A DNA stretch of 64,000 nucleotides from Candidatus Nitrospira kreftii (GTDB taxonomy: Bacteria > Nitrospirota > Nitrospiria > Nitrospirales > Nitrospiraceae). Made by a program: the position numbers and the translations under genes. Position 1 is the first letter of the stretch. Every line of letters starts with the position of its first letter. The stretch is taken from assembly GCA_014058405.1 (NCBI GenBank), contig CP047423.1, forward strand, positions 434,001 through 498,000. Reading direction: 5' to 3'. Positions 14,010 through 31,947 of the stretch are shown here, in pieces. The notes below the pieces were generated by a model that was given only the letters and a program-made list of their open reading frames with translations, was not told where the DNA came from and did no database searches.

Positions 14010-14086
14010 GTGGGTGTAGCTCAGTTGGTTAGAGCGCCGGATTGTGGATCCGGAGGTCGCGGGTTCGAAACCCGTCATCCACCCCA
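14010..14086 (+). tRNA. tRNA-His (GTG anticodon)
   Basis: A full cloverleaf can be drawn. The acceptor stem GTGGGTG pairs with CATCCAC (one G-T pair), the D stem is GCTC/GAGC, the anticodon stem is CCGGA/TCCGG with loop TTGTGGA (anticodon GTG, His), and the T stem is GCGGG/CCCGT with loop TTCGAAA. A C discriminator and CCA are encoded. A G at 14009 supplies the genomically encoded G-1 that histidine tRNAs need opposite C73. The 3' part is the left attachment repeat of an integrated element, and the tRNA is left intact. Confidence 0.97.
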
Positions 14087-15306
14087 TGCCCTCTTGTCAT
14101 AACTTCTTGTGGGATCAATTGATCTGAAGATGTTGGTCCGATGAAAGCTGGTGCCGGTTGCGCCGAGGTTGCAGAATTAGCCGTGAGCATGGGCGTATCG
14201 AGTCGGTCCACGGCCTGGGTATTCCCGCCTGGAATCAAATGACCGTACAGGTCCACCGTGACTTGGATTGAACTGTGACCCATCTGATCCTTTACGTAGA
14301 CAGGACTCTCACCGTTCTGGAGCAGTAACGACGCGAAGCTATGGCGGAGATCATGGAAACGGACTTGCCGCACTCCGGCCCTTTTCAAGAGCTTGAAGAA
14401 CTGCAAACGGATCCAATTCTGATGCAACGGTTTCCCATTTGCATCGCAAAATACCCACTGGGATGACTCCTTGCCCTCTGTGGCGGCCTCTTGCTGTCGA
14501 TTCAATTGTAACGCTTCCAGCGTACCGGTCAGCTCTCGGGATAGGTCCACTCGTCGCGATTCGCCACTCTTCGGCGTAGTCAGCCGGCCACGTGTGAAAT
14601 TCTGGCGCACTTCGACAAATCGGCCGGTCAGGTTGAGAGCGTCCCATTGGAGAGACAGCAGTTCGCCTTGGCGAAGTCCCGTCCGAGCTGCACAGAGAAA
14701 GAGCGGATAGACATTTGGAGCTGCCTGCTTGCTATATGTCAGGAACTGCGCCAATTCTTGGCGGTTCAACGGATCAATGGAGCGCCGCTTGCTGATTTTT
14801 GGCAAGAACTTGCCGGGATTGAGTGCGGGATTAGCCGTGAGCAGATTGTCTTCGATGGCATGGCTGAAGAGGCTACTCAATGTACGAATGATATTGATCA
14901 CGGTCTTAGGTGCGAGGCCTCGCTTGAGGCAGGAGACGGCTAGCGCTTTGACTTTGTCTCGGGTGATCTGGCTTAGCGCCACACCGCGAAAGACCGGGAA
15001 CACGTAGCGGTTGAGCACCTTTCGATAATCATCATGCGTCGTATGTTTGCGGGTCTGTTCTATTCGTACGAGAAACGTCTCGGCATAGGCGTCCAAGGTC
15101 ATGCTGATCTGTGGGCGTTCGAACGCGGTCTGCCCGAGTGCCAGCCTCGCTTGAATCTGTTGTGCAACTTGCTTCGCAGCCTTCTTGGCGATCTCACCTC
15201 TACCAATCCGCTTGGCTTTACGTGTGCCCTGATGGTTGATGAAAACCCACCAGGCATTCTTCCACTCTCGCATCGTGACGCCCATGGTGCGTATGGTAGT
15301 CCTCAC
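14029..15306 (-). CDS. Tyrosine-type site-specific integrase
   Basis: A 425-residue integrase. The N-terminus has an arm-type DNA-binding region (WKNAWWVFINHQGTRKAKR) and a SAM-like core-binding domain (residues about 70-160). The catalytic domain shows ARTGLRQGE (Arg I), HDLRHSFAS (H-x-x-R) and MGHSSIQVTVDLYGH with the nucleophile Tyr. GTG 15306 has AGGAG about 8 bases upstream; ATG codons at 15285 and 15273 are alternatives. The gene reads through the attachment repeat and ends inside the tRNA, so its last residues (RTRDLRIHNPAL) are antisense tRNA sequence. It starts 13 bases after the upstream HTH gene. It catalyses integration and excision of this element. Confidence 0.95.
   Translation of the reverse strand: MRTTIRTMGVTMREWKNAWWVFINHQGTRKAKRIGRGEIAKKAAKQVAQQIQARLALGQTAFERPQISMTLDAYAETFLVRIEQTRKHTTHDDYRKVLNRYVFPVFRGVALSQITRDKVKALAVSCLKRGLAPKTVINIIRTLSSLFSHAIEDNLLTANPALNPGKFLPKISKRRSIDPLNRQELAQFLTYSKQAAPNVYPLFLCAARTGLRQGELLSLQWDALNLTGRFVEVRQNFTRGRLTTPKSGESRRVDLSRELTGTLEALQLNRQQEAATEGKESSQWVFCDANGKPLHQNWIRLQFFKLLKRAGVRQVRFHDLRHSFASLLLQNGESPVYVKDQMGHSSIQVTVDLYGHLIPGGNTQAVDRLDTPMLTANSATSAQPAPAFIGPTSSDQLIPQEVMTRGHGVDDGFRTRDLRIHNPAL
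14064..14088 (+). repeat. Left attachment repeat (att), 25 bp, in tRNA-His 3' end
   Basis: The 25 bases from the T loop of tRNA-His through the CCA end and two further bases recur exactly at 31923-31947. The adjacent bases differ on both sides. This is the expected footprint of tyrosine-recombinase integration at a tRNA 3' end. Confidence 0.92.
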
Positions 15307-15319
15307 AAACCTACTCCTG

Positions 15320-15610
15320 TCAAGCTGTTCGACGCGGCTTCTGAATCTGAGAGACGACCGATTCCACCAGCTCAGCCAAATCGTTGGCTGGTTGCATTGT
15401 CCGGTGCGTCGTCATCCACCGATCGAACTCCTCACGCTTCACCAAGATCTTGCCTCCCACTCTGTAGTGAGGCAGCGGCTGATGGTGGTCGACCAGCCGG
15501 TTGCGCAACCACCGAACGGAGCAGCATGAATACGCGGCTAAGGCCTGGAGATCGAAATAGCCAGACGCATTGAGAATTCGGACGTTCACAGCTCCAGTTC
15601 CTCGAACCAT
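15320..15610 (-). CDS. Helix-turn-helix protein, excisionase/MerR-like
   Basis: A 96-residue protein with an excisionase-type winged helix: LQALAAYSCCSVRWLRNRL as the HTH, then YRVGGKILVKREEFDRWM, the usual wing of Xis/DNA-binding family proteins. It lies directly upstream of the integrase on the same strand, the usual place for a directionality factor or integrase regulator. A GTG at residue 8 (15589) is an alternative start. Its role in excision is inferred from family and position. Confidence 0.75.
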   Translation of the reverse strand: MVRGTGAVNVRILNASGYFDLQALAAYSCCSVRWLRNRLVDHHQPLPHYRVGGKILVKREEFDRWMTTHRTMQPANDLAELVESVVSQIQKPRRTA

Positions 15611-15629
15611 GCGTGGGGATCGACAGTTT

Positions 15630-15698
15630 TCACGCGTCTCGTAGCAATCGAGCCGTTGCGATCTGTTCGGATAAGAAGCTGCGAGACACTTTGTTCAT
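15630..15698 (-). CDS. Possible 22-residue peptide or leader ORF upstream of the integrase operon
   Basis: A tiny frame starting MNKVSRSFL has GAGGAGAAC directly upstream of its ATG and ends 19 bases before the HTH gene. It may be a translated leader of the HTH-integrase operon. No homology is recognised. Confidence 0.25.
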   Translation of the reverse strand: MNKVSRSFLSEQIATARLLRDA

Positions 15699-15939
15699 AG
15701 TTCTCCTCACCGACCTTCTCTTCCTGCTCTCCATCTCGCCTCGGGGGAGTCTTCCGACACCACCATCTCCCCCTACATGCGCCCGCGTCACCGCCGGCGG
15801 GGATTGAAGACTAACCTCCCAGTGGGGGCGGGCCATCGCCACGGAGCAGCGGATCAGGCCTTCTCAAACTTCCTGAGCCCACTCTTCCCCGTCCAGGCCT
15901 GCCCGCCGCGAGCGCGCTGAGCCCTCCTCCTCCTCCTTC

Positions 15940-15972
15940 TGCCCCACCCCCGGTTTTGTGCGGGGTGGGGCA
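15940..15972. repeat. Perfect 11-bp inverted repeat (G/C-rich hairpin)
   Basis: The arms 15940-15950 and 15962-15972 are exact complements with an 11-base loop. It sits in the divergent region between the integrase operon and the RadC-like gene. Neither side has a T-run, so it is not a standard terminator. It may be an origin-type or regulatory hairpin of the element. Confidence 0.6.
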
Positions 15973-15994
15973 CAGCTTTGAAGGAGGAATTCGG

Positions 15995-16498
15995 ATGAAA
16001 AAACCATCGCGACTCACAGCAGCGGCCAGTCAGCCATCGGACTCCATCGGGACAGCCGAGCCGTATCGGGCTCCTCGGTATCGGGTCACGCTCGTCTGTG
16101 ACACGGCTGGGACCGCATCGCCCGAACTCATACAGGATTCGCGCACGGCTCTGTCGATGTTCCGGCCCTGCTTTGAGGGATTGGATCGGGAACACTTCGT
16201 GGTCTGTGGGCTGGATGCGAAACATCGGGTGATCGGGATCAATGTGGTGTCGGTCGGCACGCTGACGCTGTCCATCGTCCATCCACGTGAAGTGTTCAAG
16301 CCGTTGATCGTGATGAATGCGGCCGCCTGGCTGTGCGCCCATAATCATCCCTCCGGAGACGCTACGCCGAGTCAAGAAGATCGTGTCTTGACTAAGCGAC
16401 TTCGCGAAGCCGGGGACCTGTTGGGCATCACGCTGTTGGATCATCTCATCCTCGGGGAGGAACGCCACTATAGCTTTGCCGATGAGGGCTGGCCCTGA
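15995..16498 (+). CDS. RadC-like JAB-domain protein
   Basis: A 167-residue protein with the JAMM metal motif HNHPSGDATPSQED (HxHP-x7-S-x2-D type) and the usual C-terminal LLDHLILGEERHYSFAD. It is shorter than chromosomal RadC (about 220) and lacks most of the N-terminal helix-hairpin-helix part, as is common for copies on mobile elements. GGAGG lies 6 bases before the ATG at 15995. The biochemical role of RadC proteins is unsettled; a DNA- or ubiquitin-like-processing metalloprotease fold is all that can be claimed. Confidence 0.85.
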   Translation: MKKPSRLTAAASQPSDSIGTAEPYRAPRYRVTLVCDTAGTASPELIQDSRTALSMFRPCFEGLDREHFVVCGLDAKHRVIGINVVSVGTLTLSIVHPREVFKPLIVMNAAAWLCAHNHPSGDATPSQEDRVLTKRLREAGDLLGITLLDHLILGEERHYSFADEGWP

Positions 16499-16532
16499 TT
16501 CCGAGGCAGCGGTCACGATCGACCGATCCTTG

Positions 16533-16697
16533 TCACCACCGATCTCCGCCTTCTGCGTGTTCACTGTGTCGGAGGTGCTCCACGAGGGTGTCGATCGCCA
16601 CTCGAACCAGCTCTTCACGTTCGGGTCGTGAGCCTTGTACCTCAATGGAGGCCTGCGTGGTGGAGCCGCCCGACCAGTTCACTGTGAGGGTCAACAT
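16533..16697 (-). CDS. Small hypothetical protein (54 aa) downstream of the replication gene
   Basis: The frame starts MLTLTVNWSGGS and ends at TGA 16535-16533. It begins 26 bases after the stop of the Rep gene on the same strand, with an AAAGGA-type site about 9 bases before the ATG. A beta-like N-terminus is followed by a helix rich in Glu/Arg/His. It is probably an accessory product of the rep operon. No family is recognised. Confidence 0.45.
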   Translation of the reverse strand: MLTLTVNWSGGSTTQASIEVQGSRPEREELVRVAIDTLVEHLRHSEHAEGGDRW

Positions 16698-16723
16698 GAA
16701 AGGGGTCCTTTCTGACTACTGGA

Positions 16724-17764
16724 TCACGCACCAGCGGGAGCATAGGCCGCCGAGAAGCCATCCCGGGGATTCCACCACTGCAGCCGGCGTCTCGTGTGCT
16801 CGAGTGTCTTGCCACCTTGGAGGAACGCGAGATGCTTGCTCCGCCACCGATCCACGCCGTCGACAATGGTCCTGACCAGCCACCGTTCCCCCGCCTCCGG
16901 ATGGGCACAGAGCAGGCTCAATGTGGGCGCCAAGCTCCTCTCGGCCCAGCGCTTGACCTGTTCGATGGTCTTGACCGACTGCTCGATCGCAAGTTTGGCC
17001 CGGGCCATGCCGTCGGTGAGCACTTTCCACCAGGGGAGGATTGGCGCGTAGTAGCGATCTTTGGGGTCATCCGCTCGCGTACAGTTGCGGAAATCCACGG
17101 CGGTACGGAACACCCCGACGATGTAGCGTTGGAAGGAGTCCTGATCCAATGTGGACAAGGCCAAGCCCACGGCCTGAGCCCGTTCCCGTTTCCATTCCAT
17201 TTCCCAGCGCATCCAGGGCCCCTCGACCGGCTTCTCTTTGGCCCGTTGTTCTGCCGCTTTGTCATAGATCCGGAGATAGCTCTCCGATTGACGCGACCCC
17301 AAGGCGAGTGTCTTGCCACGCTCAGCCCCTGTAGGCACATCCAGCCCACCGATGATCCGGCACTGCCGGAAGTGCGAAACACAGTGGCCTTTGGCCACGG
17401 CTTCATAGACCCCGTCGACATCGATAACGCCCATGCGATCATCGAGCGCGACATCGATCCGGCCGAAATGCCCCTTCTGATCGAACACCCACGCCGCTAG
17501 CTGATGAAACTTCTCGAAGGGCCAATGACTGATCAGTTCTTGCGAGAGATCGACATGGACTTCACGAGGTGCTCGTTTGGCTCCGGTGGCAATCCGGCCA
17601 TAGCCACTGTCATTGCCTCGGCAGATCCAGACCTCCCGGTACCCTTCATAGCCCTTCTCATCTCGGATCCAGTCTCCCTCACCGAGTACTCGCTTGAGGA
17701 TCTCCACCGTGGAGGAGGGAACGGTAAACCGAAGCCATCCGATCGACATCGACCAGCTACTCAT
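16724..17764 (-). CDS. Rep_trans-type replication initiation protein
   Basis: A 346-residue protein resembling the Rep_trans/pT181-like 'replication initiation factor' family. Supporting segments include an early SIGWLRFTV strand, GRIDVALDD (an acidic catalytic-type motif), GLDVPTG...TLALGSRQSESYLRIYDK (with the conserved tyrosine region) and WMRWEMEWKRERA. Such proteins nick a double-strand origin and start rolling-circle replication of plasmids, filamentous phages and some ICEs. Its ATG overlaps the stop of the upstream HTH gene (ATGA), so translation is coupled. Presence on this element implies that the circular form may replicate. Confidence 0.75.
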   Translation of the reverse strand: MSSWSMSIGWLRFTVPSSTVEILKRVLGEGDWIRDEKGYEGYREVWICRGNDSGYGRIATGAKRAPREVHVDLSQELISHWPFEKFHQLAAWVFDQKGHFGRIDVALDDRMGVIDVDGVYEAVAKGHCVSHFRQCRIIGGLDVPTGAERGKTLALGSRQSESYLRIYDKAAEQRAKEKPVEGPWMRWEMEWKRERAQAVGLALSTLDQDSFQRYIVGVFRTAVDFRNCTRADDPKDRYYAPILPWWKVLTDGMARAKLAIEQSVKTIEQVKRWAERSLAPTLSLLCAHPEAGERWLVRTIVDGVDRWRSKHLAFLQGGKTLEHTRRRLQWWNPRDGFSAAYAPAGA

Positions 17765-18072
17765 ATGGACCTCCGTGAACGTGGTTGGAATTTGCGCCCC
17801 CGTTTGACTATCCGGGGGCTGGGCTGCCCGTCGCGCCGTCGGCTGGCGCCGCCGGTCGCGCGGCGTCCACGTCCCCCGGCAGTGTCGACGGTGACCATCT
17901 GTCCATCCCCGTTCCGTTGGATCGCGGCCCGCACCTGGTCGAGATCGAAACGGACCATGCGACCGATGCGGATCACCGGCAGGTGGCCCTTCCAGTAGGC
18001 GCGACGGACGGACACCACACTGACCTTCAAAACGGCGGTAAGTTCCGGGACGGTCAACCAGGTGCTCTTCAT
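17761..18072 (-). CDS. Excisionase-like helix-turn-helix protein
   Basis: The start at 18072 (MKSTWLTVPEL) has a Shine-Dalgarno-like AAGGAAGGGT directly upstream; a longer frame from 18126 is less likely. The first 60 residues form an excisionase-type HTH (WLTVPELTAVLKVSVVSVR then LPVIRIGRMVRFDLDQV). The tail is very basic and Arg/Gly-rich and may bind DNA nonspecifically. It overlaps the rep start by 4 bases. It probably regulates rep or excision, and the iteron-like repeats just upstream are plausible binding sites. Confidence 0.75.
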   Translation of the reverse strand: MKSTWLTVPELTAVLKVSVVSVRRAYWKGHLPVIRIGRMVRFDLDQVRAAIQRNGDGQMVTVDTAGGRGRRATGGASRRRDGQPSPRIVKRGRKFQPRSRRSI

Positions 18073-18150
18073 ACCCTTCCTTTCATGTCGCGCTGTGGCA
18101 GGAGCGGACCTTACGCGGGAACTCACGCCGGTGGAAGTAGTCCTGTTGTG

Positions 18151-18187
18151 GTCAGGAAGGGTCAGGAATGGTCAGGAGGAGTCAGGA
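18151..18187. repeat. Four direct repeats with exact 10-bp period (iteron-like)
   Basis: The heptamer GTCAGGA occurs at 18151, 18161, 18171 and 18181, exactly one helical turn apart, with variable 3-base spacers. The row lies about 80 bases upstream of the HTH-rep operon. It is a likely binding array for the Rep or HTH protein (origin or operator). Confidence 0.7.
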
Positions 18188-18837
18188 GTTCTGAGGGTGA
18201 GGTGGTGGCGGTGGAGCAGTTCGTGATGATTCCTTCAGCTTGAGTGGTTCAGATGACGAGAGACCAGTAATCGCGTCGCCTTTCTAGACGCAATGATGCG
18301 CAGATGGTGAATTGTAGGTATTTACGAGTTGGGTCACGCGAACGAGAACGACTCAGGAAGAAACGATACGAACGGACAGGACATTTCGAAGTTGCATGAA
18401 AAAATATTTTGGCTCTGGGCCGAATAGCTCTAGGAACTGTTGAATAAAGCGAAGGGGGGTTTTTCGTGCGACGATGGTGAACAACAGTTTATCAAGACCC
18501 TCGAGGCCGCCATCTCTTTGAGGCGTTCTCTGTGGAGTGCGCGTGCGCGCCTCTCTATGGGGTGGGGCTCTCTCTTGAGAGGGGCACGTATGACGTGGGA
18601 CTAGAGCTTACCTCTATAAGGCGACGCTCTGGCAGAATCTGAACGAGAAATGACCGTTCTTCGCGACGACCTTCGTAGGATCCTTTAACGATCAGCCTGG
18701 TGCCTGGCGCAACGGCACCTCATTCGGTTTCAATGACCTGGAGGCGCTCATGCACGTCGTCTTCGAGGCAGGAGTGGATCACGCTCAGAGGCTGAAGCGA
18801 GCTCCCTAAGGACCATCTGGCTGAATATCCATTGGCC
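18188..18837. other. Gene-free stretch within the element
   Basis: No convincing gene is seen on either strand. It joins the replication backbone (left) to the cargo (right). One part (about 18400-18440) is AT-rich compared with its surroundings. No clear repeat or terminator was found. Confidence 0.5.
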
Positions 18838-20943
18838 TTACTCATCGTCGTCGTCTCCCTCGGTGCCATTGCCGCGGTTTCCTCTCTCTCCTCTGTTATT
18901 ACCGTTTCCCCTGTTGCCTCCATTAGTGGCCTCGTCTCCATTCATTGCACGAGTGATAGTGATGGAGTACGTCTTCGAACTGCCATTTGGAGCGGTCACC
19001 GTGATCGAGGCAGCCGTGCTGGTTCCGGCTCCGTTGAGCGGAATGGTCGCGTCTCCTGTCGGAACTCCCGTCCCGGCGCTCACTGAACCGGAGATCACGG
19101 CATTCGCGTCCGCCTTTGTCGCCGACACGTGTATGCTCATGACCTCGCTGGCGACACCTGTTGTATAGTCCTCTGTGTCCGCCGCAAAGGCAGGCGTGAG
19201 TGACCCTGGCGAGACCGTCAGGGCTGACAGGTGGGTATTGCTCGAAGAGGCTGCTCGGTGCATGGTGAGACGGTACGTCTTGGAGCTGCCGTTCGGCGCG
19301 GTGACAGTCATCAACACCACCGTCGCGGTCCCTTCCCCGCCGAGTGGTATGGTCGCTTGGCCGGTGGCCGTTCCTGCTCCGGCTGTCACATCCTCAGACA
19401 GCACGGCAGTGGTATCGGCTTTGGTGGCCGAGACCGTGACGCCGGTGACGGCGCTCGCCACATTCACCGTATAGCTCAGCGTACTTGGTGCAAATGCAGG
19501 AGCCAAGCGGCCTGGAGACACGCTCAGAGCCGACAGATGGTTGTCCCCACCCAGGGCGGCGCGATCGACTTCCACCGTATAGGTCTTCTGCGTTCCGTTC
19601 AGTGCCGTCACCACCAGAGTAATCAGGGTGCGTAGCCCTGCTGCACGCAAGGTCATGGGACGAGCCTGTCCAGAGTTGGTGGGTGTCCCGTTCACTGTCA
19701 ACGTGGCCGTAGAGTCGTGCAGTGTCGGCGTCACGGTGACGGTCGTGACACTGGTCGCCACACTCACCGCATAGTCCTCGGTCTCGGAATTGAAGGCAGG
19801 CGACAAGGGACCAGGCGACACCGTCAACCCGGAGAGGTTGTTGTTTCCAGCCAGGGCGGCGCGAATGACGTTCACAACATATGTTTTGGCAGGGCCGCTC
19901 TGAGGGTCCACGACGATCGTGATAAAGGTGTTCGATCCCGGTCCGTTCAATGTCACGCTGCGAGCCTGCCCTGAGGTCGTGCCTTGCCCACTGACGGTCA
20001 TGATTGAATCCGTATCTTGCAAAGTCGGCGTGATCGTGACGCTGGTCGTCCCGCTTTCCACATTAACGGTGTATCCGACGGTACCGGCGCTGAAAGCGGG
20101 GGTGAGGCGTCCGGGTGAGATAGTCAGGCTCTGCAAGTTGTTATTGTTGGAGACCCCGCGGCTCACCGTCACCAGGTAGGCTTTGTCATTGCCGTTCTGG
20201 GCCGTCACGAGGATGGTGATGGTCGTACTTTGTCCTGGGCCATTGAGGGTGATGGCACGAGCGTGACCGGAGATCGCGGCTTGCCCATTCACGGTCAGCG
20301 TCGCCGCAGGATCCGATAGCGCGGGCGTGACGGTCACGCTGGCGACGGTGTTGGCGACCATGGCGGTATAGACCAGGGTGTCCGCAGTGAATGCGGGGGC
20401 CAGGGTTCCGGATGACACCGTCAAGCTCTGCAAGGAATTCGTTCCAGCTACTCCTGCTCGGTCCAGACGGAGGGTGTAGGTTCTCGAACTCGTATTCGAT
20501 TCGGAAACCACGATCGTGACGATCGTCGTGGACCCTGCTGGCTCGAGGGTAATGGAACGGCTGGTCGTCGCCTGGCCGTTGATCGTCACGGTATCCCCTG
20601 ACACGGCCGCTTGAGCGTTGACGAGCACGCTCTCGACACTGCTGGTCAGATCGATACGGTATTGGGTGGTTCCGCCGCTAAAGGCTGGTTGGAGCGTTCC
20701 GGGTGTAATGGTCACGCTAGCCAGCTCCACCGCTGGGTTCACCGACGCGCTGTCACTACACCCATGGAGGCCCAGACCGGACATGACAAGAACCATCCCC
20801 AGATACGTTCCAGCAGCGGAGACACATCTATTGCGAGCCCAATACAGTGTGTCAAACTGATTTTGATCTGGAGCCGCACGTCGCTTGGGCCGCGGTGTGA
20901 AGCGTGGGAGAGAGTGTACGATGTGGGGGGAGGGAGGCTGCAT
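18838..20943 (-). CDS. Large lipoprotein with six cadherin-like beta-sandwich repeats
   Basis: This 701-residue protein has a hydrophobic segment ending in a lipobox-like LGLHGC near residue 62, so it is probably lipid-anchored. A start closer to that segment is possible. Six repeats of about 95 residues follow. Each begins L-x-x-L-[TS]-[VI]-[ST]-x-G-x-L-x-PAF and continues with a Y-x-V strand, an x-SVTVTPT strand and an NGxxKTYxVxVxRA end. This is the pattern of the 'cadherin-like beta sandwich' family (PF12733). The C-terminal tail is Asn/Gly/Arg-rich and ends in a run of acidic residues. It is probably a surface adhesion or matrix protein carried as cargo on the copper element; function is inference. 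Confidence 0.8.
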   Translation of the reverse strand: MQPPSPHIVHSLPRFTPRPKRRAAPDQNQFDTLYWARNRCVSAAGTYLGMVLVMSGLGLHGCSDSASVNPAVELASVTITPGTLQPAFSGGTTQYRIDLTSSVESVLVNAQAAVSGDTVTINGQATTSRSITLEPAGSTTIVTIVVSESNTSSRTYTLRLDRAGVAGTNSLQSLTVSSGTLAPAFTADTLVYTAMVANTVASVTVTPALSDPAATLTVNGQAAISGHARAITLNGPGQSTTITILVTAQNGNDKAYLVTVSRGVSNNNNLQSLTISPGRLTPAFSAGTVGYTVNVESGTTSVTITPTLQDTDSIMTVSGQGTTSGQARSVTLNGPGSNTFITIVVDPQSGPAKTYVVNVIRAALAGNNNLSGLTVSPGPLSPAFNSETEDYAVSVATSVTTVTVTPTLHDSTATLTVNGTPTNSGQARPMTLRAAGLRTLITLVVTALNGTQKTYTVEVDRAALGGDNHLSALSVSPGRLAPAFAPSTLSYTVNVASAVTGVTVSATKADTTAVLSEDVTAGAGTATGQATIPLGGEGTATVVLMTVTAPNGSSKTYRLTMHRAASSSNTHLSALTVSPGSLTPAFAADTEDYTTGVASEVMSIHVSATKADANAVISGSVSAGTGVPTGDATIPLNGAGTSTAASITVTAPNGSSKTYSITITRAMNGDEATNGGNRGNGNNRGERGNRGNGTEGDDDDE

Positions 20944-21529
20944 GTGATCCGCTCACGATCCTGGGGATGTCTCGAGCTCATTAATGATTGGTTTTAGTAT
21001 TTATCCACTACGATGCAGAAACTCTCCTGGCAGAAGCCCTAGTCTTAAGTCTAGGCCCTAGATATTGTGCAGGCTTCCAAGCCCTTGACCCCCGGTGATC
21101 TGAATAGGCGTAGCGATCGATTCGCGGAGCTGAAGGTCTTCCGATTCAATCTTGTTCATAAAAAACGACGTTTTGCGCACCTGCATCAGCGGATCGCTCT
21201 TCTGCCGACAAAGCGGGCGCATCTGAAGGATCTCATTCTTGCACTCTAATGGCTGGCCTGGGTACGACATATGGCTGGCACAACACATACAGAAAACGCC
21301 GATATGCCGATATTTGGTGAAGCCTTGATAGCGCCAATCCAGCAGAGGGTGGCCCCAGTATGAGGGAATCAGGAAACTGGTTCATGAGTGGGAAGGATCT
21401 TTGGCACGACCTAGGCAGAATGCCTAGCCTAACCTAGGGAAATGCCCAGCTACTGGCTTTGTGATCAGGGAGTAATGAGAGGACAAAGGAGAGAGGCCAC
21501 GAAGGAATCTGCGAGCTTAGGTGGTCACC
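20944..21529. other. Regulatory-looking intergenic region with CTAG-containing repeats
   Basis: No gene is supported. An exact inverted repeat of 7-bp arms with a 3-base centre (CTAGGCA/TGCCTAG) lies at 21411-21427, about 100 bases upstream of the MEDS-domain gene. More CCTAG-type words lie near 21040-21062 and 21433-21438. It could hold an operator for the divergent genes on each side. Confidence 0.4.
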
Positions 21530-22102
21530 ATGCCTGCCAGCGGTCTTCGCGGTATTCATGATATCCCGTTAGGGTCTCATATCTGCACATTTTACCGACA
21601 ACCCAAATATTTTCTCCGAATGAGCGCCTCCTTTCTCAAGGCAGGCTTGATCAACCATGAAGCATGCGTCTGGATTCTTCCGTCCCCGGTGACACTCGAA
21701 TCCGCTGTTCATGCGCTCTCCCAGCATGGTTTGGATGCTGCAGAACTGCAAGCCACGCAGCAGCTTCAAATCTTATTGGCACACGACTATTATTTTGCTT
21801 CAAGCCTCTTTGATGTCGATGCTGCCTTAAATCGGCTCGTGTCGCTATGTGTGATGGCCCGCCAACTGGGCTACAGGAGCGTCCGTGCCGCCGGCGGTCC
21901 CGGGCCGTTTCTCTCCGAGGGACGTCGCCGAGCCTTTATGCGCTATGAACAACATGCGACGGAGGTCATCGCCAGACATCCGGGGATCGGATTATGTTGC
22001 TATCCCTCCCCCCACTGTTTACCGGCCACCGAGATCTTCGACATTATGAGTACGCATCCGAAAGCGTTCCTGCGAACACACGACGGTTGGGCCACCGTCT
22101 AA
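21530..22102 (+). CDS. MEDS-domain sensor protein
   Basis: A 190-residue protein made of a single MEDS (methanogen/methylotroph DcmR sensory) domain. It begins with GIHDIPLGSHICTFYR and has LRMSASFLKAGLINHEACVWILP, followed by the conserved helical segment and a C-terminal TEIFDIMSTHP. The Cys/His residues in HICTFYR and CCYPSPHC are conserved in type and could bind a metal or ligand. No output domain is attached, so it would act through a partner. AGGTGG lies 5-6 bases before the ATG at 21530. A link to the nearby copper genes is inferred from position. Confidence 0.75.
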   Translation: MPASGLRGIHDIPLGSHICTFYRQPKYFLRMSASFLKAGLINHEACVWILPSPVTLESAVHALSQHGLDAAELQATQQLQILLAHDYYFASSLFDVDAALNRLVSLCVMARQLGYRSVRAAGGPGPFLSEGRRRAFMRYEQHATEVIARHPGIGLCCYPSPHCLPATEIFDIMSTHPKAFLRTHDGWATV

Positions 22103-22264
22103 GGGAGCGTGTGATTCAGGCCACTGTCCTGTGTGCAGGTCGCCATGGAGATGCAGTAGTGTGAAAATGCCCTCTATCGCAGGCAATACCCTCGATGGCG
22201 ATGACGGTTCTACCGCTAGTTTAATCTGAGGCGTCTTACTTTCTTGCACCTCCTCCGATAATGC

Positions 22265-22477
22265 TTATCGCCACGTAACTTCTTCCCAGAAGAGATGGAT
22301 AAAGGTTTCAAAAGGCGGAAAGTTGTGTGCATTTTGTGCTTTGGACCGCACCCAGAGATCAATCTCCATCCCGGCCGGATCTGTTGCGCCCCCTGGCAAC
22401 ACACGTTTCACCGGATAGCGGACCTCATGGGTCTTGGGATCACGCGAGCGCTCCATCACCATAAAAATGCGCGTCAT
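22265..22477 (-). CDS. Small hypothetical protein
   Basis: The frame starts MTRIFMVMERSRDPK and ends WEEVTWR (70 residues). AAGGAG lies only one base before this ATG, so translation may begin at one of the Met codons 5-8 codons later. The composition is protein-like (charged, aromatic-rich C-terminus) and unlike a shadow frame. No family is recognised. Confidence 0.4.
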   Translation of the reverse strand: MTRIFMVMERSRDPKTHEVRYPVKRVLPGGATDPAGMEIDLWVRSKAQNAHNFPPFETFIHLFWEEVTWR

Positions 22478-22734
22478 ACTCCTTATAGAGTACCTGGTCC
22501 TCTTTATATATCGTCGCGGTGCCCTAGCCACCGAGATACAGCCATGTTTTGGGATACAGAGGATCGCCGTTGTTGAAGTCGCTAGATGGTCTCTCGGATG
22601 ACAGGATGCTACGAGCCATACTGCACTGTATCAACCGCTGAAGCGAGGTATAACCAAGCAGCCATCAGGCATGCACGTTGGGACGGATTTGAGGGAGGCG
22701 TTGACTCGATTCATACCCGTTGGTAGCATTGAGC

Positions 22735-23064
22735 ATGCGCCGAATGGCCACACTCCTCGTTTTCTTGCTGCTCATTCTCACCTTCAACGCCTACGCCTGC
22801 GTCCTGCCTTTACCGACCGTCACCAAGGCGGATTGTTCCTCGGACACGGACGACCAAGCACGGCAGACATGCGATGCGTTTCTTGAAATAGGGCCTCACT
22901 CACAGCTTTGGTCCAACCATGCCGTGAGCTTGCTCGGCCTTGAATGCGCAGTGCCGATTGAATCGTCTGCAACCTTCGTGTCCAGTTTCAAAGCGACACC
23001 AGCTCCTGGCAGTGCCGATACGCCAATTCATCTCTCCATCCCAAATACTGTTCTGAGGATTTGA
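22735..23064 (+). CDS. Small secreted Cys-containing protein, unknown function
   Basis: The N-terminus MRRMATLLVFLLLILTFNAYA is a clear signal peptide. The mature part of about 90 residues has four cysteines (ACVLP, ADCSS, QTCDAF, LECAV) that could form disulfides or bind metal. It sits 69 bases before the Tat-exported copper-binding protein and in the same direction, so it may belong to the copper response. No family is recognised. The start at 22735 puts positive charge before the hydrophobic core. Confidence 0.55.
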   Translation: MRRMATLLVFLLLILTFNAYACVLPLPTVTKADCSSDTDDQARQTCDAFLEIGPHSQLWSNHAVSLLGLECAVPIESSATFVSSFKATPAPGSADTPIHLSIPNTVLRI

Positions 23065-23133
23065 TACCCTCCTCTTGGTTTCTGTGTGCCAACAGACAGA
23101 GTACGCGAACAGCACGCCACGAAAGGGGGAGTT

Positions 23134-23634
23134 ATGTCCTTGATCAACGCTATAAGCAGAAGAAGACTTCTATCTACCGGTGCATCTCTAGTCGCTGCCG
23201 GTGCGTCGTTCATGATCGTGCCGAAAGGGTATGCCACCTCTGGTGGCAAGTCCGATGCGCCCGCGCCCTTGGTTCAAGGAGGGCATCACATGAACGGCGC
23301 GATGGACCAATGCATTCAGCTCTGCCGAGACTGTCATGCGATGTGCATGCAAACAATCGCGCATTGTCTGAAATTAGGGGGGCGCCATGCTGCCCCCGAT
23401 CACATTCGCCTCTTGATGGACTGTGCACAGATGTGCACGACCACGGTTGACTACATGCTTCGTGAGTCTTCGTTTCACGATCGGGTCTGCCGCCTCTGTT
23501 CCGACCTGTGTACGCAGTGTGGGCAGAATTGCAAGAAGGTGGCAGGAGACGATCAGCTGATAAACCGGTGCATCGAGGTCTGTCGACAGTGTGCGGAATC
23601 TTGTGAGCGGATGGCATCCGAAGTGGCAGCCTAG
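23134..23634 (+). CDS. Tat-exported four-helix bundle copper-storage-like protein (Csp/DUF326 type)
   Basis: The start at 23134 has AGGGGGAG upstream and gives a twin-arginine signal (ISRRRLLSTGASLVAAG). The mature part is helical with cysteines in CxxxC and CxxC-type spacing (MDQCIQLCRDCHAMCM, MDCAQMCTT, VCRLCSDLCTQCGQNC, CIEVCRQCAESC) plus Met and His. This matches the Csp1-like copper storage proteins, which line a four-helix bundle with Cys to hold many Cu(I) ions. It would act in the periplasm as a copper sponge beside the ATPase and oxidase encoded downstream. Confidence 0.85.
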   Translation: MSLINAISRRRLLSTGASLVAAGASFMIVPKGYATSGGKSDAPAPLVQGGHHMNGAMDQCIQLCRDCHAMCMQTIAHCLKLGGRHAAPDHIRLLMDCAQMCTTTVDYMLRESSFHDRVCRLCSDLCTQCGQNCKKVAGDDQLINRCIEVCRQCAESCERMASEVAA

Positions 23635-23957
23635 CCACCCAACGGTCATGTCGCTCCTGCCGAGTCTGCGCGGGCTGTGGCTGGATCACAGTCTGCGCGG
23701 ACTCAGTCTATCTTGCATCAGAGTAGCGACTTGCTGCTGCCAGTTGAGTGCGAAAGCACCCTGACATATCTTGATCCGCGTGTGCGATCCCTGAAGAGAA
23801 ACAGGGAGACCATGTGAAACACCGAACATTGTAGTATTAGCACTTAAGCTATTCGTAAAATACAGGCGTGTGACAACATGCAGGGAACATGTACCAAGCC
23901 AGTCGGGCTTTTGGCAGGCGGCCCCGCGTGCCGCTTTTCGTCGGTACCGGACAGTCG
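23635..23957. other. Intergenic region between convergent genes
   Basis: No supported gene. A TTG-initiated frame on the minus strand overlaps the end of the sigma gene but has no family features or ribosome site, so it is left out. Confidence 0.4.
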
Positions 23958-24545
23958 TCAACGGGTTGAGCAGGTACAGTTAAGACAGCCGTGTTTCGTA
24001 CAGACTCCACACGTTGCTTCAAGGGACATGCGGAGTGCTTGTCGTGCTCGATGGAGTCGTACCGTGGCATTGTTTTGGGAGATATGGAGAGCCTTGGCGA
24101 CCATTGCCGGCGCTTCACCGTGTAGATCAATACGTCGAATGAGTTCTGCATAGTTGGGACGTAGGGCGGCTATTACTTCTTCTATGCAGTGGCAAATCGT
24201 ACCCTTGATCTCGTCTAGGGACGGTACTGCTTGTAGCTGGAGTACTTGAGCATCCTTTTCGAAGGCGTCATGCTGTCCCCGCTGAGCCGCTTTGGCACGG
24301 TAGTAATCAATCACTGCATTTCGGAGGACACGATAGAACCAGGGCACGACGCTCTCCTCCCTTTTGATGGTATGTTGATGCTCGATTGCGCGTACCAGGC
24401 ATTGCTGGAACACGTCGTCCGCGATTGTCCGGTCGCCCAATTGTCTCCCTAAGAAAGCACGGAAGGCCGGTTCGTTCTCGAGAATACGTGCGAGATTGCC
24501 CACGCCCGAGTTGGCCTGACCAGATTCTTTATTTGGTTCAGTCAT
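23958..24545 (-). CDS. ECF sigma factor with Cys-rich C-terminal tail (CorE-like, probably copper-responsive)
   Basis: Sigma region 2 is seen in FLGRQLGDRTIADDVFQQCLVRAIE and VVPWFYRVLRNAVIDYYRAK (each quoted in part). Region 4 is in LRPNYAELIRRIDLHGE and ALHISQNNATVRLHRARQAL. The protein ends in a short Cys-rich tail with CGVC and CLNCTC, plus Cys-His in the linker (CHC). CorE-type (ECF44) sigma factors use such a C-terminal Cys-rich domain to sense copper directly, without an anti-sigma factor. No anti-sigma gene is visible here, which fits. It is divergent from the copper ATPase gene, which it may activate. Confidence 0.82.
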   Translation of the reverse strand: MTEPNKESGQANSGVGNLARILENEPAFRAFLGRQLGDRTIADDVFQQCLVRAIEHQHTIKREESVVPWFYRVLRNAVIDYYRAKAAQRGQHDAFEKDAQVLQLQAVPSLDEIKGTICHCIEEVIAALRPNYAELIRRIDLHGEAPAMVAKALHISQNNATVRLHRARQALRMSLEATCGVCTKHGCLNCTCSTR

Positions 24546-24837
24546 CTTGACCCCTCACGGTGAATCGCTGAAGCCCATTGTATACGGTCCTGCTCTCCCA
24601 AGGTGAAGCTTCCTTCCTTCATCCCTTAAATGTCACTGAGTTCTAAGTCTTTTCTTGCCGGTGGGTAGCTATCTGTAATGTTACAGCACTCCGCCCGTCT
24701 GCAGGTATGAAAAGAGTCTCAGGGACCTTGCTAGGAGACTAATTCACTGTGCCAAACATAAAATGATGGAGGGTACTATGACAGCAGGTAGAACGAACGG
24801 GTGCTGTTCATCCAAACGTTCTGGAGGAGGTGAGCAT
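24546..24837. promoter_or_regulatory. Divergent control region of the copper genes
   Basis: This region separates the Cys-rich sigma gene from the copper ATPase. It holds an inverted repeat CTGTAA/TTACAG with a 2-base centre at 24673-24686, a candidate operator. An in-frame upstream extension of the ATPase from 24763 also lies here. Confidence 0.45.
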
Positions 24838-27300
24838 ATGGCTCGAGGTACAACCGTACTGCCGACGCTGGAGCTCGCAGGGGACGGACTGGCCATTGAT
24901 CCCGTCTGCGGCATGTCCGTCAATCCTCGTGATGCGGCGGCGAAAGCCGAATACCACGGACAGACATATTATTTTTGTAATCCGTCCTGCCACAAGAGGT
25001 TCGTCTCCGATCCTGCTCGCTACCTCTCAGGGAGCAAGCGGGAGCCCCATGGTCACCCCGCGCAACATGGCGAGGATGTTGACTATACCTGCCCTATGGA
25101 TCCCGAAGTCCGCCAAAAGGGACCAGGGACCTGCCCAAAGTGCGGGATGGCGTTGGAGCCGGCCGAGGTGACGGCTCCAGCGACCCGGACGGAATACACG
25201 TGTCCCATGCATCCCGAAATCGTCCAATCGAAGCCGGGCAATTGCCCCATCTGCGGGATGGCCCTGGAGCCTCGAACCGTAACAGGAGCGGAAGTCAATC
25301 CGGAGCTGGTGGATATGGCACGCCGGTTTTGGCACAGCGTGATTCTGGGCTCTCCCATTCTGGCGCTCATGATCTCGGAGATGCTGCCAGGCCGACCGTT
25401 GCAGCAACTCGGTTCGGGTCGCACACTGATCTGGTTGCAATTCGCGCTGGCCACACCGGTGGTGCTCTGGGCCGGCTGGCCTCTCTTCCAACGAGCCTGG
25501 GCGTCGATCGTCAACCGCCATCTCAACATGTTTACTCTCATCGGTTTGGGCACCGGTGCCGCGTATCTGTACAGCGTGGCCGTGACGCTCGTTCCTTGGC
25601 TGTTCCCGGATTCGTTCCGCGACCACAGCGGCGAGCTGGCCGTCTACTTTGAACCGGCCGTGGCCATCGTCGCCTTGGTGCTGTTGGGACAGGTGCTGGA
25701 GCTGCGGGCGCGCAGCCGCACGAGCAGCGCCTTGAAATCCCTGTTGAGCCTCGCCCCGAGAAGCGCGCGTGTCGTCCGTGCGGACGGCCGTGAAGAAGAT
25801 GTCCCGTTGGACCAGGTGCAGGTCGGCGATCATCTGCGCGTCCGTCCTGGCGAGAAAATCCCGGTGGACGGCGTGGTGTTGGAGGGAGGCAGCTCAGTCG
25901 ATGAATCGATGGTGACCGGAGAGCCCATTCCAATGGAAAAGCACGCTGGTCAGACAGTGGTGGGGGCCACGGTCAATGGCACCGGCAGCTTCGTAATGCA
26001 GGCACAGCGGGTTGGCCGCGAAACCCTGCTCTCGCAGATCGTGCGCATGGTCAGTGAGGCGCAGCGAACCCGTGCGCCCATTCAACGGCTGGCAGACCTC
26101 GTCGCCGCGTATTTCGTCCCCATTGTCATCTTCGTGGCGGTGGCCACCTTCGTGGTCTGGGCCCTGTACGGTCCGGAACCCCGCATGGCCTATGCGCTAC
26201 TCAATGCCGTGGCGGTCTTGATCATTGCCTGCCCTTGCGCCTTAGGGCTGGCGACACCCATGTCGGTCATGGTCGGGACTGGGCGTGGGGCGACGGCGGG
26301 CGTGCTGATCCGCAATGCCGAGGCCCTGGAGACGTTGGCCAAGGTCAATGTGTTGGTCGTCGATAAGACGGGCACGCTGACGGAAGGCAAGCCTCGCCTC
26401 ATGACCGTCGCGCCGGCGCCCGGATACACCGATGCCGAGCTCCTCCGCCTCGCAGCTGGGGTAGAGCAGAGCAGTGAGCATCCTCTGGCGGCGGCCATCG
26501 TCCACGGGGCGCGAGACAGAGACATTGTGCCGCCAAAGGCACAGGACTTCCGCTCGGTCACCGGAAAAGGAGTTACGGGCACGGTCGATGGCCGGTCCGT
26601 CACCGTCGGGACGGTGTCATTCCTCAACGACATCTCCGTCGAGACGAAGCATCTGCTGGAGCAAGCCGAGCCCATCAGCTCGCAACGCCAAACGGTCATG
26701 TTCGTCGCGATTGACGGTACGCCGGCAGGATTGCTGGGGGTGGCCGATCCTATCAAGCCATCCACACCGGAAGCCATCGATCTGCTGCATCGGGAAGGGC
26801 TTCGGATCGTGATGCTGACCGGTGACAGCCGGACAACTGCGGAGGCCGTGGCTACCCAGCTTCACATCGATGAGGTGCAGGCCGAGGTGCTGCCAGCGCA
26901 GAAGACCGCCGTGATCAAACGCCTCCAGGCAGAGGGCTATGTGGTGGCCATGGCGGGCGATGGGATCAACGACGCCCCAGCGTTGGCGCAGGCCCACGTG
27001 GGAATCGCCATGGGAACGGGAACCGATGTGGCAATGGAAAGCGCCGGCGTAACGTTAATCAAAGGAGACCTTCGGGCCATCACGCGGGCGCGCCGATTGA
27101 GCCGCGGGACAATGCGCAATATCCGGCAGAATCTGTTTTTCGCATTCGTCTATAACATGCTGGGCGTTCCTATTGCGGCCGGGGTCCTGTATCCGTTCGT
27201 CGGGATTCTCCTCAGCCCAATGATCGCCAGTGCAGCCATGACCTTCAGCTCGGTGTCGGTTATCGGCAACGCGCTACGACTGAGGAATCTGCAACTATAA
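24838..27300 (+). CDS. Copper-translocating P1B-type ATPase with YHS and two HMBD domains
   Basis: The start at 24838 has GGAGG 7 bases upstream; ATGs at 24763 and 24778 would add a Cys-containing N-terminus. The N-terminal YHS domain has DPVCGMSVN and [12 protein letters not shown]. Two heavy-metal-binding domains follow, each with YTCPM[DH]PE and CPxCGMALEP. The transporter core has the CPC motif in [12 protein letters not shown], the TGEP actuator loop, DKTGTLT (phosphorylated Asp), the HP motif SEHPLA and [10 protein letters not shown]. It exports copper from the cytoplasm at the cost of ATP. It is followed by the multicopper oxidase gene after 35 bases, so the copper genes form one operon. 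Confidence 0.95.
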
Positions 27301-27335
27301 CGAGGATAGTACGTCGCTCGATTAACGAGGATGTC

Positions 27336-29153
27336 ATGAACGAGACTGTCCTGACGCGACGCGAACTGCTGAAGCAAGCCGGGGGAGTGGGATGTCTGGC
27401 AGCGTTGCAACAGCTCTTGCCTGCTGGCGCAGTTAGCGCACTCTCACCCGCGCCGCTGCCGAGCGCAAACTCAACGGCGCTGAGCGGTGACATCATCGAC
27501 CTGGTGATCGGCGAATCGCCGTTCACGCTGGACAGGCGGACTGCGACTGCGATGACAATCAACGGGACAATCCCAGGACCGCTGATCCGTCTGAAGGAAG
27601 GGCAGGAGGCGACGCTCCGAGTCACGAATCACTTGAAAGAAATTTCATCTATTCACTGGCATGGGTTGCTACTGCCGTCTCACATGGATGGCGTGCCGGG
27701 AGTGAGCTACGGCGGAATCAAACCTGGGACGACCTTCACCTACCGGTTTCCGATCAAGCAGAGCGGCACCTATTGGTTTCACAGCCATTCGGGCGGCCAG
27801 GAATTACAGGGCCTGTACGCACCGATGATCCTAGAGCCACTCGAGCCGGAGCCGTTTTCCTATGATCGGGACTATGTGGTGATGCTATCGGAATGGACGT
27901 TCGAGTCCGCGGAGATCGTGTTCGACAATCTCAAAAAGTTCTCGGGCTACTACAACTTCCAGAAGCGGGCCGCTCCGGAGTTCCTTTCCGACGTTGCACA
28001 ATGGGGCCTGTGGCCTGCACTGCAGAATTATCTGATGTGGGACCAGATGCGGATGGACCCGACCGACTTTGCCGATGTGACGGGCTCCACCTTCACCTTT
28101 CTCACTAATGGACGTCCGCCATCGGCCAATTGGACCGCCCTCTTTCGGCTGGGAGAACGGATCAGGCTCCGCTTCATCAATGCGGCGGCGATGACGTTCT
28201 TCGATGTGCGTATCCCGGATCTCGCAATGGCGATCGTCCAGGCCGATGGTCAGAACGTTCAGCCGATCGTCGTGGAGGAATTCCGTATCGGTCCAGCAGA
28301 AACCTACGACGTAATTGTCGAACCGAGGGAGGATCGAGCCTATACGATTTTTGCCGAGACGATGGACCGCAGCGGATACGCGCGCGGGACTCTCGCGACA
28401 AAGCCCGGGGTGAGCGGCGAAATTCCCGAGCGGCGGCCCCGTCCGATTCGGACGATGGAAGACATGGGCATGGCAGGCCATGACAGCGGCCATGCGATGG
28501 CTATGTCCGGCCCGAGGCCGTCCGAAAACCATACAAACAGCCATGGCATGCGGTCACATCAGGGTAGGGACCATGGATCGGGCACGGAAACGGAGACTCG
28601 CCCACCCTCGCTGATCCCCGGCGCAGCACCGGTCGCACATGGCCCCGACCATCATGGTACTGGCAACCAGACGGTCGCCGAATTTTCCCAGAATCGCATG
28701 CATGAACCAGGCAGAGGACTGGAAGGAAGTCCGCGGCGCGTGCTCGTCTATACCGACTTAAAAAGCCTCGTGCCTCACCCCGACCAACGGGAGCCGGAAC
28801 GAGAGATCGAGCTCCACATTACCGGTCATATGCAGCGCTATATGTGGTCGTTTGACGGCAAGAAATATTCGGACGCGCCTGAGCCGATCCGCTTTCGCTA
28901 TGGCGAGCGGGTGCGGCTCACCTTCGTGAATGACACGATGATGGAGCACCCACTCCACCTCCACGGGATGTGGATGCAGCTCGAAAACGGCACGGGCGCC
29001 TACCTACCGCGCAAACATACGGTTGCCGTCAAACCGGCTGAGCGACTGTCCGTCATCATTAGCGCCGATGCTCCGGGTCCCTGGGCTTTTCACTGCCACC
29101 TTCTCTTCCACATGGAAGCGGGCATGTTCCGAGTTGTCGAGGTGTCCGCCTGA
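27336..29153 (+). CDS. CopA-type multicopper oxidase (copper resistance)
   Basis: A 605-residue periplasmic oxidase with a twin-arginine signal (LTRRELLKQAGG). The four copper-site motifs are all present: HWHGLLLP, HSHSGGQ, HPLHLHGMW, and HCHLLFHMEAGM near the C-terminus. A Met/His-rich insertion of about 100 residues (around 370-470, with MEDMGMAGHDSGHAMAM) probably binds extra copper. It oxidises Cu(I) to the less toxic Cu(II) in the periplasm. It lies between the copper ATPase and copB, spaced for one operon. Confidence 0.93.
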   Translation: MNETVLTRRELLKQAGGVGCLAALQQLLPAGAVSALSPAPLPSANSTALSGDIIDLVIGESPFTLDRRTATAMTINGTIPGPLIRLKEGQEATLRVTNHLKEISSIHWHGLLLPSHMDGVPGVSYGGIKPGTTFTYRFPIKQSGTYWFHSHSGGQELQGLYAPMILEPLEPEPFSYDRDYVVMLSEWTFESAEIVFDNLKKFSGYYNFQKRAAPEFLSDVAQWGLWPALQNYLMWDQMRMDPTDFADVTGSTFTFLTNGRPPSANWTALFRLGERIRLRFINAAAMTFFDVRIPDLAMAIVQADGQNVQPIVVEEFRIGPAETYDVIVEPREDRAYTIFAETMDRSGYARGTLATKPGVSGEIPERRPRPIRTMEDMGMAGHDSGHAMAMSGPRPSENHTNSHGMRSHQGRDHGSGTETETRPPSLIPGAAPVAHGPDHHGTGNQTVAEFSQNRMHEPGRGLEGSPRRVLVYTDLKSLVPHPDQREPEREIELHITGHMQRYMWSFDGKKYSDAPEPIRFRYGERVRLTFVNDTMMEHPLHLHGMWMQLENGTGAYLPRKHTVAVKPAERLSVIISADAPGPWAFHCHLLFHMEAGMFRVVEVSA

Positions 29154-29170
29154 CTGCGGGAGATGCCTCA

Positions 29171-30010
29171 GTGACGACAGCCCTCAATATATGGCGCACG
29201 TTTATGGCGGTCTGCCTCATGAGCACCGGGATTGAGGTCGCCCCGGTGTTTGCAGAAGGCAGTTCCTCAACCATCGGGCCGAGGGATCAGCCCACCGTCA
29301 CTCAGGCCAATTTGGCTCCGCAGCAGGACTGGCCGAGCCCGGTCAACGATGAGGAACGACGACTCTTCATGTTAGTCGACGTACTCGAATATCGCCCACA
29401 GACCCGCGGCAGGGAGAACACGAGCGACTATCGCTGGGATGTCGAGGGCTGGTATGGCGGAGATTACAATCGGATCTGGTACAAAAGCGAAGGTCAGCAG
29501 GACACCGCATTCAAAGCGGACTACGACCTAGACTTCCAACTGCTTTATGGCCGTTTTGTGCAAAAATATTACGATGTGCAGATTGGCGGACGCATGGAAA
29601 CCCAATCGTTCCGCGGGCGGAATGTAACGCGCGGCTTTGGCGTGATCGGCCTTCAGGGCTTGGTGCCATACAACTATGAGTTCGAATCGGCTTTGTTCCT
29701 GGCTCAAGACGGGGCCGTCTCGGCCCGTCTGTCCTTCACCAAGGATTTTCTGCTGACGCAGCGGCTCATCCTTCAAGGCCGGTTTGAAATGAACGCCGCC
29801 ATACAGCGGGTTGAAGAATTCACCACCGGCTCTGGCTTAAACAATCTCGAGTTTGGGCTGCGATTGCGTTATGAGATCCGACGAGAGTTTGCCCCCTATC
29901 TTGGGGTCTCCTTCGATCGCAGCTATGGACAGACAGCCACTCTCGTCCGACAAGAAGGAGGGGACCCCAGCCAATTAAGGTTTGTGGTGGGGCTAAGAGC
30001 TTGGTTCTAA
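29171..30010 (+). CDS. copB: Copper resistance outer-membrane protein CopB
   Basis: The GTG-initiated 279-residue protein has a signal sequence (TFMAVCLMSTGIEVAPVFA). The mature part is beta-barrel-like with alternating aromatic and polar strands and a C-terminal Trp-Phe typical of outer-membrane proteins. The motifs YDLDFQLLYGRFVQKYYDVQ and NLEFGLRLRYEIRREFAPYLGV are typical of PcoB/CopB. It is translated 17 bases after the oxidase gene. Its stop overlaps the end of the convergent PilZ-type pseudogene by 4 bases. Confidence 0.9.
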   Translation: MTTALNIWRTFMAVCLMSTGIEVAPVFAEGSSSTIGPRDQPTVTQANLAPQQDWPSPVNDEERRLFMLVDVLEYRPQTRGRENTSDYRWDVEGWYGGDYNRIWYKSEGQQDTAFKADYDLDFQLLYGRFVQKYYDVQIGGRMETQSFRGRNVTRGFGVIGLQGLVPYNYEFESALFLAQDGAVSARLSFTKDFLLTQRLILQGRFEMNAAIQRVEEFTTGSGLNNLEFGLRLRYEIRREFAPYLGVSFDRSYGQTATLVRQEGGDPSQLRFVVGLRAWF

Positions 30011-30619
30011 CCGGTTCCCATCCTCCTCAGGCAGCGAGTACAGGAACCATGTGCCTCGTGCCACATCTTTTCGGGCACGCCGTCACGCAAGGCCTCGGAC
30101 CCGACTTCCTCTGAGTCTGAATCACCATCCCATCGCGTGTCGGCTGGTTTGTGCGTCGGATCGGTCTGGAGGTCCCGCAGGTGTTGCAAAATGTCCTCAA
30201 GCGAGGGGATGCCACGTGGTGGCCGAGCATGTTGAGTGGTCGGCGATGTGGTCGGAGGTGCGGTCTTCGGATGGGTCGTGTGTGATATCCATGTGAGACC
30301 AAATTTATGGTGCAGGAATTCGCTGACCCACGCCTGATCCATCGGGTCCATATCTTGCCGTTCAATGGCAAATACATGTACATGACCCTTGACCCATAAG
30401 ACGGTCGACGCGAAGCAGTGTGGGTCGTTCAGGAACGGAGACCTGCACGGTCAACCGCATACCGGGTACCACCGGCATCGTCCCGGCCATGCGCCAGCCT
30501 CGATCGGTCAGATCTAAGACAGTCCCTTCGGCGGGAAAGGTGGCATTGCCATACCGCATGGGGGGCCAGCTGACCGGAAACCGACTCGCATGCCGCCCAG
30601 GACTCGTTCTGTTGTGCAT
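30007..30619 (-). pseudogene. PilZ-domain gene broken by a single-base frameshift
   Basis: Two frames together make one PilZ-like protein. The first starts at 30619 (GGAGAAG 6 bases upstream) and has the c-di-GMP-type RHASRFPV element and VLDLTDRGWRMAG, then leaves frame near LLRVDR. In the other frame the sequence continues VLWVKGHVHVFAIERQDMDPMDQAW with VSEFLHHKFGLTW, the usual end of such domains. Adding one base near 30400-30405 would join them. The second frame then runs into a low-complexity Thr/Pro/His tail. It is either a true pseudogene or a base-calling error. A second ATG at 30351 could still express the C-terminal part. Confidence 0.7.
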
Positions 30620-30857
30620 GGGGGCTTCTCCTTCCAGTAACCGCCATCGCACTACAGCAATCGTAGCCTGACCGTCAGCCATGCGCCTTCCCCAAACTCG
30701 GTACGTCTGAAGGGGGAGAACCTAAAGCTGGTGAAGCCTGTCGGAACGGGTACGCCACGGGCTCTCGTACACAGGCGGTGAGCTGAACCATGTCCGATGA
30801 TGATTACAGGGAAAGAAGAGTTAGACTCAGCCATAACGCAGGATAGGGAGTTCTGCG

Positions 30858-31220: not shown

Positions 31221-31281
31221 GTCTCTCCTGATACAGCACGTGATGGGTGCGTCCACGTCCGTGTGGGCCTCTGCGCTGGAG

Positions 31282-31774: not shown

Positions 31775-31922
31775 GGCTTACCTCCGTCAGCTTGAGATGG
31801 GTCTGGATCCTCGGAATCCTGGTTGCAACCGGTTGCAGATTTGCGGATTGTTTTCCCTGTTTTTCCCTGATTTGCCGAGCTAAGTGTGCGAATTTGTTGA
31901 TTTGTCGATAAATCTGGTGCAA

Positions 31923-31947
31923 TTCGAAACCCGTCATCCACCCCATG
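31923..31947 (+). repeat. Right attachment repeat (att), 25 bp
   Basis: An exact copy of 14064-14088 (T-loop to CCA end of tRNA-His). The sequence before it (TGGTGCAA) does not continue the tRNA, so this is only the 3' fragment and marks the right end of the element. Confidence 0.92.

Follow-up and report, generated by a model that had tools for sequence, protein, structure and literature searches.

A mobile element in the genome of Candidatus Nitrospira kreftii, located within a 64,000-nucleotide stretch of the complete chromosome (the window), has the core of its attachment site, as read from both borders, in the 3′-terminal part of the gene for its tyrosine integrase. The best explanation of the evidence as a whole, and one judged likely to be right, is that attP lies in the integrase 3′ end, that the circular form of the gene is the native one, and that integration exchanges the tail of the protein. 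In other words, the circle form is probably the native integrase gene, and its product would consist of a folded catalytic domain, a disordered linker, the core and a tail of about 50 residues that is acidic and hydrophilic, in this order. Recombination with the 3′ end of tRNA-His would cut the gene at the core and provide it with an 11-residue end read from the antisense strand of the tRNA, and excision would restore the native tail. Both reading frames, the repeat at which the crossover takes place and the recurrence of the arrangement at four tRNA targets can be read directly in the genomes, and the element presumably forms a circle. A putative role of attP as a regulatory switch is plausible.

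The element and the two ends of its integrase

The element occupies positions 14064-31922 (17,859 bp) at the 3′ end of a tRNA-His(gtg) gene (14010-14086, plus strand, predicted by ARAGORN), which is the integration target and whose 3′ part forms the att core. The 25-bp core, TTCGAAACCCGTCATCCACCCCATG, occurs as an exact direct repeat at attL (14064-14088) and attR (31923-31947), and both copies are identical to the tRNA-His end. With the tRNA 3′ end repeated at both borders and the tRNA itself intact, the locus has the form of a tRNA-targeted integrative element.

The integrase gene begins with a GTG codon at 15306 on the minus strand and, in its integrated form, extends to 14029, encoding 425 residues with a tyrosine recombinase domain (PF00589, E 2.9e-27). 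The invariant residues of the R..HxxR..Y pattern are found at R212, H318, R321 and Y354. There is no stop in this frame before the core, and the core is read in frame in both forms. The preliminary description had stated that the frame crosses the 25-bp repeat and ends RTRDLRIHNPAL inside the antisense tRNA, and this reading was reproduced exactly, the last 11 residues being encoded by antisense tRNA-His.

In the modelled circle, the part common to both forms (14064-15306, minus strand; element plus core, 1243 nt) is joined to 152 nt of the right end (31771-31922, minus strand), giving 1395 nt, which correspond to 464 codons and a TGA at 31771-31773. All figures given earlier for this frame (464 residues, 465 codons including the TGA at 31771) were recovered. 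The circle-only 3′ end provides about 50 residues past the core, and its homologue is likewise open in 12 further right ends. Its TGA overlaps an ATG (31774-31772) as ATGA, with the Shine–Dalgarno-like sequence GGAGGTAAG just before it (31777-31785, minus strand), also as first described. The model supports the view that circularisation would result in a longer and different integrase. Tyr354 lies well upstream of the exchanged end, and the whole catalytic domain remains on the left piece. In the AlphaFold model of the integrated form, Tyr354 belongs to the folded domain and pLDDT is below 50 for residues 361-425, so that either tail could be attached without touching the active site.

Besides the integrase, Pfam domains identify two HTH_17 proteins, a Rep_trans protein and a RadC protein in the element. 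The Rep_trans replication initiator (16724-17764, minus strand) and the RadC protein (15956-16498, plus strand) are encoded behind the integrase. In relatives located at tRNA-His, a DnaB-like helicase takes the place of these two, and one of them (G020) also has a DnaD-like loader. Copper-resistance cargo is found at 24763-30010 (plus strand), where a P-type ATPase with YHS and heavy-metal-binding domains, a multicopper oxidase and CopB are encoded consecutively. Additionally, a 701-residue protein with six cadherin-like beta-sandwich repeats (PF12733) is encoded at 18838-20943 (minus strand).

Relatives at four tRNA targets

At a cut-off of E below 1e-40, 51 of the 175 family genomes contain a homologous integrase, and all five named relatives (5/5) belong to Nitrospira. 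In the groups with ends that were read, the targets are tRNA-His, tRNA-Ser(tga), tRNA-Arg(tcg) and tRNA-Arg(acg), and read-through from the core into the tRNA occurs, across the four targets, in every homologous integrase with a readable end. The arrangement is kept in relatives whose integrases are 61-79% identical, and at other tRNA genes with integrases that are 37-62% identical. The tRNA-coded end, given above for tRNA-His, reads PTGSKPGALSN at tRNA-Arg(tcg) and VPVLKTGDGVTHPRVQISPPPP at tRNA-Ser(tga). Circles modelled from both borders for G020, G053, G037, G017 and G026 have tails of 51-59 residues.

Conservation of the right-end frame in relatives had been set in advance as a check on the preliminary description, and among the 14 tRNA-His right ends collected, 13 proved to have an open circle frame of the integrase, the sole exception being G144, with a stop 9 codons past the core. 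The first stop overlaps an ATG in 12 of the 14 (nine as ATGA, three as TGATG), although elements belonging to one clade do not count as independent observations. In G020, the circle frame terminates just past an equivalent ATG. Counted from the core through the stop codon, the circle-only part measures 128, 152, 155, 167 or 179 nt.

At the other targets, the circle form ends differently. In all ten tRNA-Ser right ends, the frame closes 11 codons past the core, with tails such as DLDPQEPPKTA that follow the pattern D-L/S/V-DPQ...KT-A/P, and a strong hairpin (z about -3.7) is located after the stop, again in 10/10; this hairpin is probably the terminator of the integrase gene in the circle. The tRNA-Arg elements with both borders have tails of 22 and about 27 residues. 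Because the tails of the other targets end in these different ways, the exchange of the tail is a trait of the whole family and the ATGA junction is a trait of the tRNA-His branch only.

None of the assemblies shows an attP junction, and, wherever its outer flank was read, the right arm adjoins other DNA and not an integrase end. Searches for free-form relatives in phage and plasmid collections returned only distant integrases, with at most 35% identity among the matches listed, and none were found among viral contigs.

Several single elements have features of their own. In the tRNA-Ser right ends L168-L177, the hairpin is conserved, has paired changes and stands about 20 nt past the circle-form integrase stop. 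The G106 element L157 (G106:C5:238001-258000) has both cores and a length of 17.4 kb, its integrase gene is split in two and holds an in-frame TAA, and the element is probably trapped. Partial integrase matches, consisting of the C-terminal part only, up to the tRNA-coded end, occur in G118:C45, G046:C1:802162, G069:C6, G124:C56, G035:C8 and G108:C1; some may be leftovers of earlier integrations and others contig ends. The G020 element, 13 kb in all, encodes a terminase small subunit (L045:11446-12045, minus strand; phrog_51, E 1.8e-21) and a 542-residue protein without a PHROG (L045:12065-13693, minus strand), and it resembles a phage satellite more than a conjugative element.

The circle-only tail and its junction

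The open frame past the core was rejected as evidence by itself. The chance of 50 open codons at the stop frequency of the window is P about 0.23, and the neighbouring +1 frame is likewise open, in the window and as far, past the ATGA, in most right ends. The frame stands above chance because of its recurrence in relatives, namely 13 of 14 open right ends, 12 overlaps with an ATG and a shared composition in 17/17 elements. Across these elements, the acidic fraction of the tail is 0.19 in the integrase frame, compared with 0.03 and 0.04 in the other two frames, and its hydrophobic fraction is 0.085, compared with 0.24 in the others. This acidic, hydrophobic-poor composition is found in the integrase frame only, in all 17 elements and at four tRNA targets. 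Since the right ends of the four groups are unrelated, the rough chance that the integrase frame is the most acidic one in all of them is (1/3)^4, about 0.01.

Constraint on the tail at the level of amino acids or codons is weak. The pN/pS ratio rises from 0.19 in the catalytic part through 0.55 in the linker preceding the core to 0.77 in the tail; within the tail region it is 0.77-0.82 in the integrase frame against 0.69 in the +1 frame, which is no worse over the first 110 nt. In an alignment of 14 right ends, the corresponding right-arm DNA (31813-31922, minus strand) is ungapped and conserved, has GCAA-type repeats about every 10 bp and shows little codon-level constraint. The repeats suggest putative arm-type sites for the integrase or an accessory protein, and the tail fits a disordered, loosely constrained protein end that overlies putative DNA-binding sites.

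The ungapped arm with its repeated GCAA motifs, a pN/pS near 0.8 that is lower in the +1 frame, the openness of that frame beyond the ATGA in most right ends and the disorder predicted for the tail region in the integrated form also suit another reading, in which the right arm is kept for the DNA-binding sites of recombination, the integrase frame is open accidentally and the tail is functionless. This reading is considered rather unlikely, and three observations speak against it. In 12 of the 14 right ends, and at several arm lengths, the integrase stop overlaps the start codon of the ORF that follows; the composition is confined to the integrase frame in each of the four target groups, whose right ends are unrelated; and in 10/10 tRNA-Ser elements a stop and a hairpin of their own come directly after a short tail. 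Far less probable still is the reading in which the integrated integrase is what has evolved and the circle tail is a leftover, even though every sequenced copy is integrated and nearly all tRNA-His elements share an identical tRNA-coded end. That end is set by the sequence of the tRNA and not by selection on the integrase, and what the element itself carries and passes on is the circle tail alone, which remains an open frame in divergent elements.

The preliminary description had further proposed that the circle, besides making a longer integrase, couples it to the gene at 31774 and thereby to the cargo. The proposed longer form is supported, with relatives that keep the arrangement, but for this element the coupling to cargo is not. 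The ORF concerned (31409-31774, minus strand, 121 residues) has no Pfam match, and its middle and C-terminal part has matches in Nitrospira, mostly with stops in that frame. It overlies the gene for a conserved zinc-ribbon-like protein (CSRC...CMNC; 31282-31533, minus strand), which is essentially stop-free in 39/39 Nitrospira genomes tested, is the first credible gene past the integrase in the circle and has a promoter-like site immediately upstream (31576-31549). This overlap accounts for the stops among relatives, and because of it the 121-residue ORF is best read as a shadow ORF with a relic start codon, most likely not a gene; it was therefore rejected as a real one.

In G053, G045 and G162, the ORF at the junction encodes an intact TSCPD-domain protein (PF12637), and in G106, G118, G082 and G136 the ORF past the junction has only 15-20 codons. 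The ATGA in the window is most simply a relic of an ancestral junction between the integrase and the TSCPD gene that is intact in the former three. In the ancestral tRNA-His elements, the circle would have joined the two genes through the 4-nt overlap, and the TSCPD gene would later have been lost from the present element, leaving the junction alone.

These junctions also bear on the stronger proposal that the circle yields a distinct integrase and, through the integrase link, turns on the right-end cargo genes. The ATGA or TGATG junction with a Shine–Dalgarno sequence in 12 of 14 right ends, the intact TSCPD gene in three elements and the location of the integrase and right-end genes on the same strand agree with it. 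Nevertheless, the proposal appears improbable, as the coupled ORF of the window is a shadow, the ORF past the junction is very short in four elements, a hairpin follows the integrase in the tRNA-Ser elements, and a separate promoter-like site precedes the next real gene of the window. Tentative and still unlikely, although less so, is the idea that attP reads the state of integration, such that the circle would give the acidic tail and, in tRNA-His members, the TSCPD operon, and integration would remove both. If it is true, DNA topology alone would set enzyme activity and right-end gene expression.

Comparison with known systems

The proposed exchange of the integrase tail resembles int/intX of phages Mx8 and Mx9, where a tyrosine integrase has attP within its coding sequence and its C-terminus is swapped for one read from the host. 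The attB of Mx8 likewise lies in tRNA genes (tRNA-Asp), at their 3′ ends. According to one account, the Myxococcus phage Mx8 has attP inside int, and integration makes a new int 3′ end and alters the enzyme (PMC6070905); according to another, 112 residues are replaced by 13 upon integration and activity is lowered (PMC4701971). Integrases extending across attP in Mx8 and SSV are noted in the Islander paper (PMC4383910). In the element described here, the core likewise lies in the integrase frame, and in the modelled circle the C-termini are swapped while the catalytic domain stays whole. The likeness is one of arrangement. In contrast to Mx8, about 50 residues are exchanged for 11, one family in the Nitrospiraceae uses four tRNA targets, and in the tRNA-His members the circle form closes on the start of an ORF downstream. 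The two enzyme forms may differ in activity, and by analogy with Mx8 the integrated form would most likely be the less active one, favouring stable residence.

Other systems share single aspects of this arrangement. In the streptococcal ICEs inserted in rumA, integrase and target reciprocally exchange their 3′ ends upon integration, which alters the C-terminus of the integrase (PMC4701971), but these have a serine recombinase and a protein-coding target, whereas here a tyrosine recombinase acts at a tRNA gene. In the integration-dependent immunity of mycobacteriophage BPs, attP is inside a reading frame and integration alters the C-terminus and hence the behaviour of the protein (PMC4557955); the altered protein is a repressor, shortened to its active form, while attP here lies in the integrase gene. 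The suicidal integrases of archaea (SSV1, pTN3, pT26-2) also have the att site within the integrase gene (PMC8371274), but that gene is split into inactive parts, whereas here the folded catalytic domain remains on one piece, the left one.

A survey from 2016 described att sites inside an element's own integrase gene as rare (PMC4701971), and an archaeal review regarded integrases that disrupt their own gene as exclusively archaeal (PMC8371274). No published account of these Nitrospira elements turned up in the literature searched. The arrangement as such is already known; the novelty lies in an apparently widespread family in bacteria that uses several tRNA targets and, in one of its branches, joins a downstream gene through a junction present only in the circle. 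Dozens of Nitrospiraceae genomes provide many natural pairs of C-termini with which a possible control of integrase activity by the state of integration can be probed. Furthermore, annotated integrases with tRNA-antisense ends such as RTRDLRIHNPAL would be products of integration and not the native protein.
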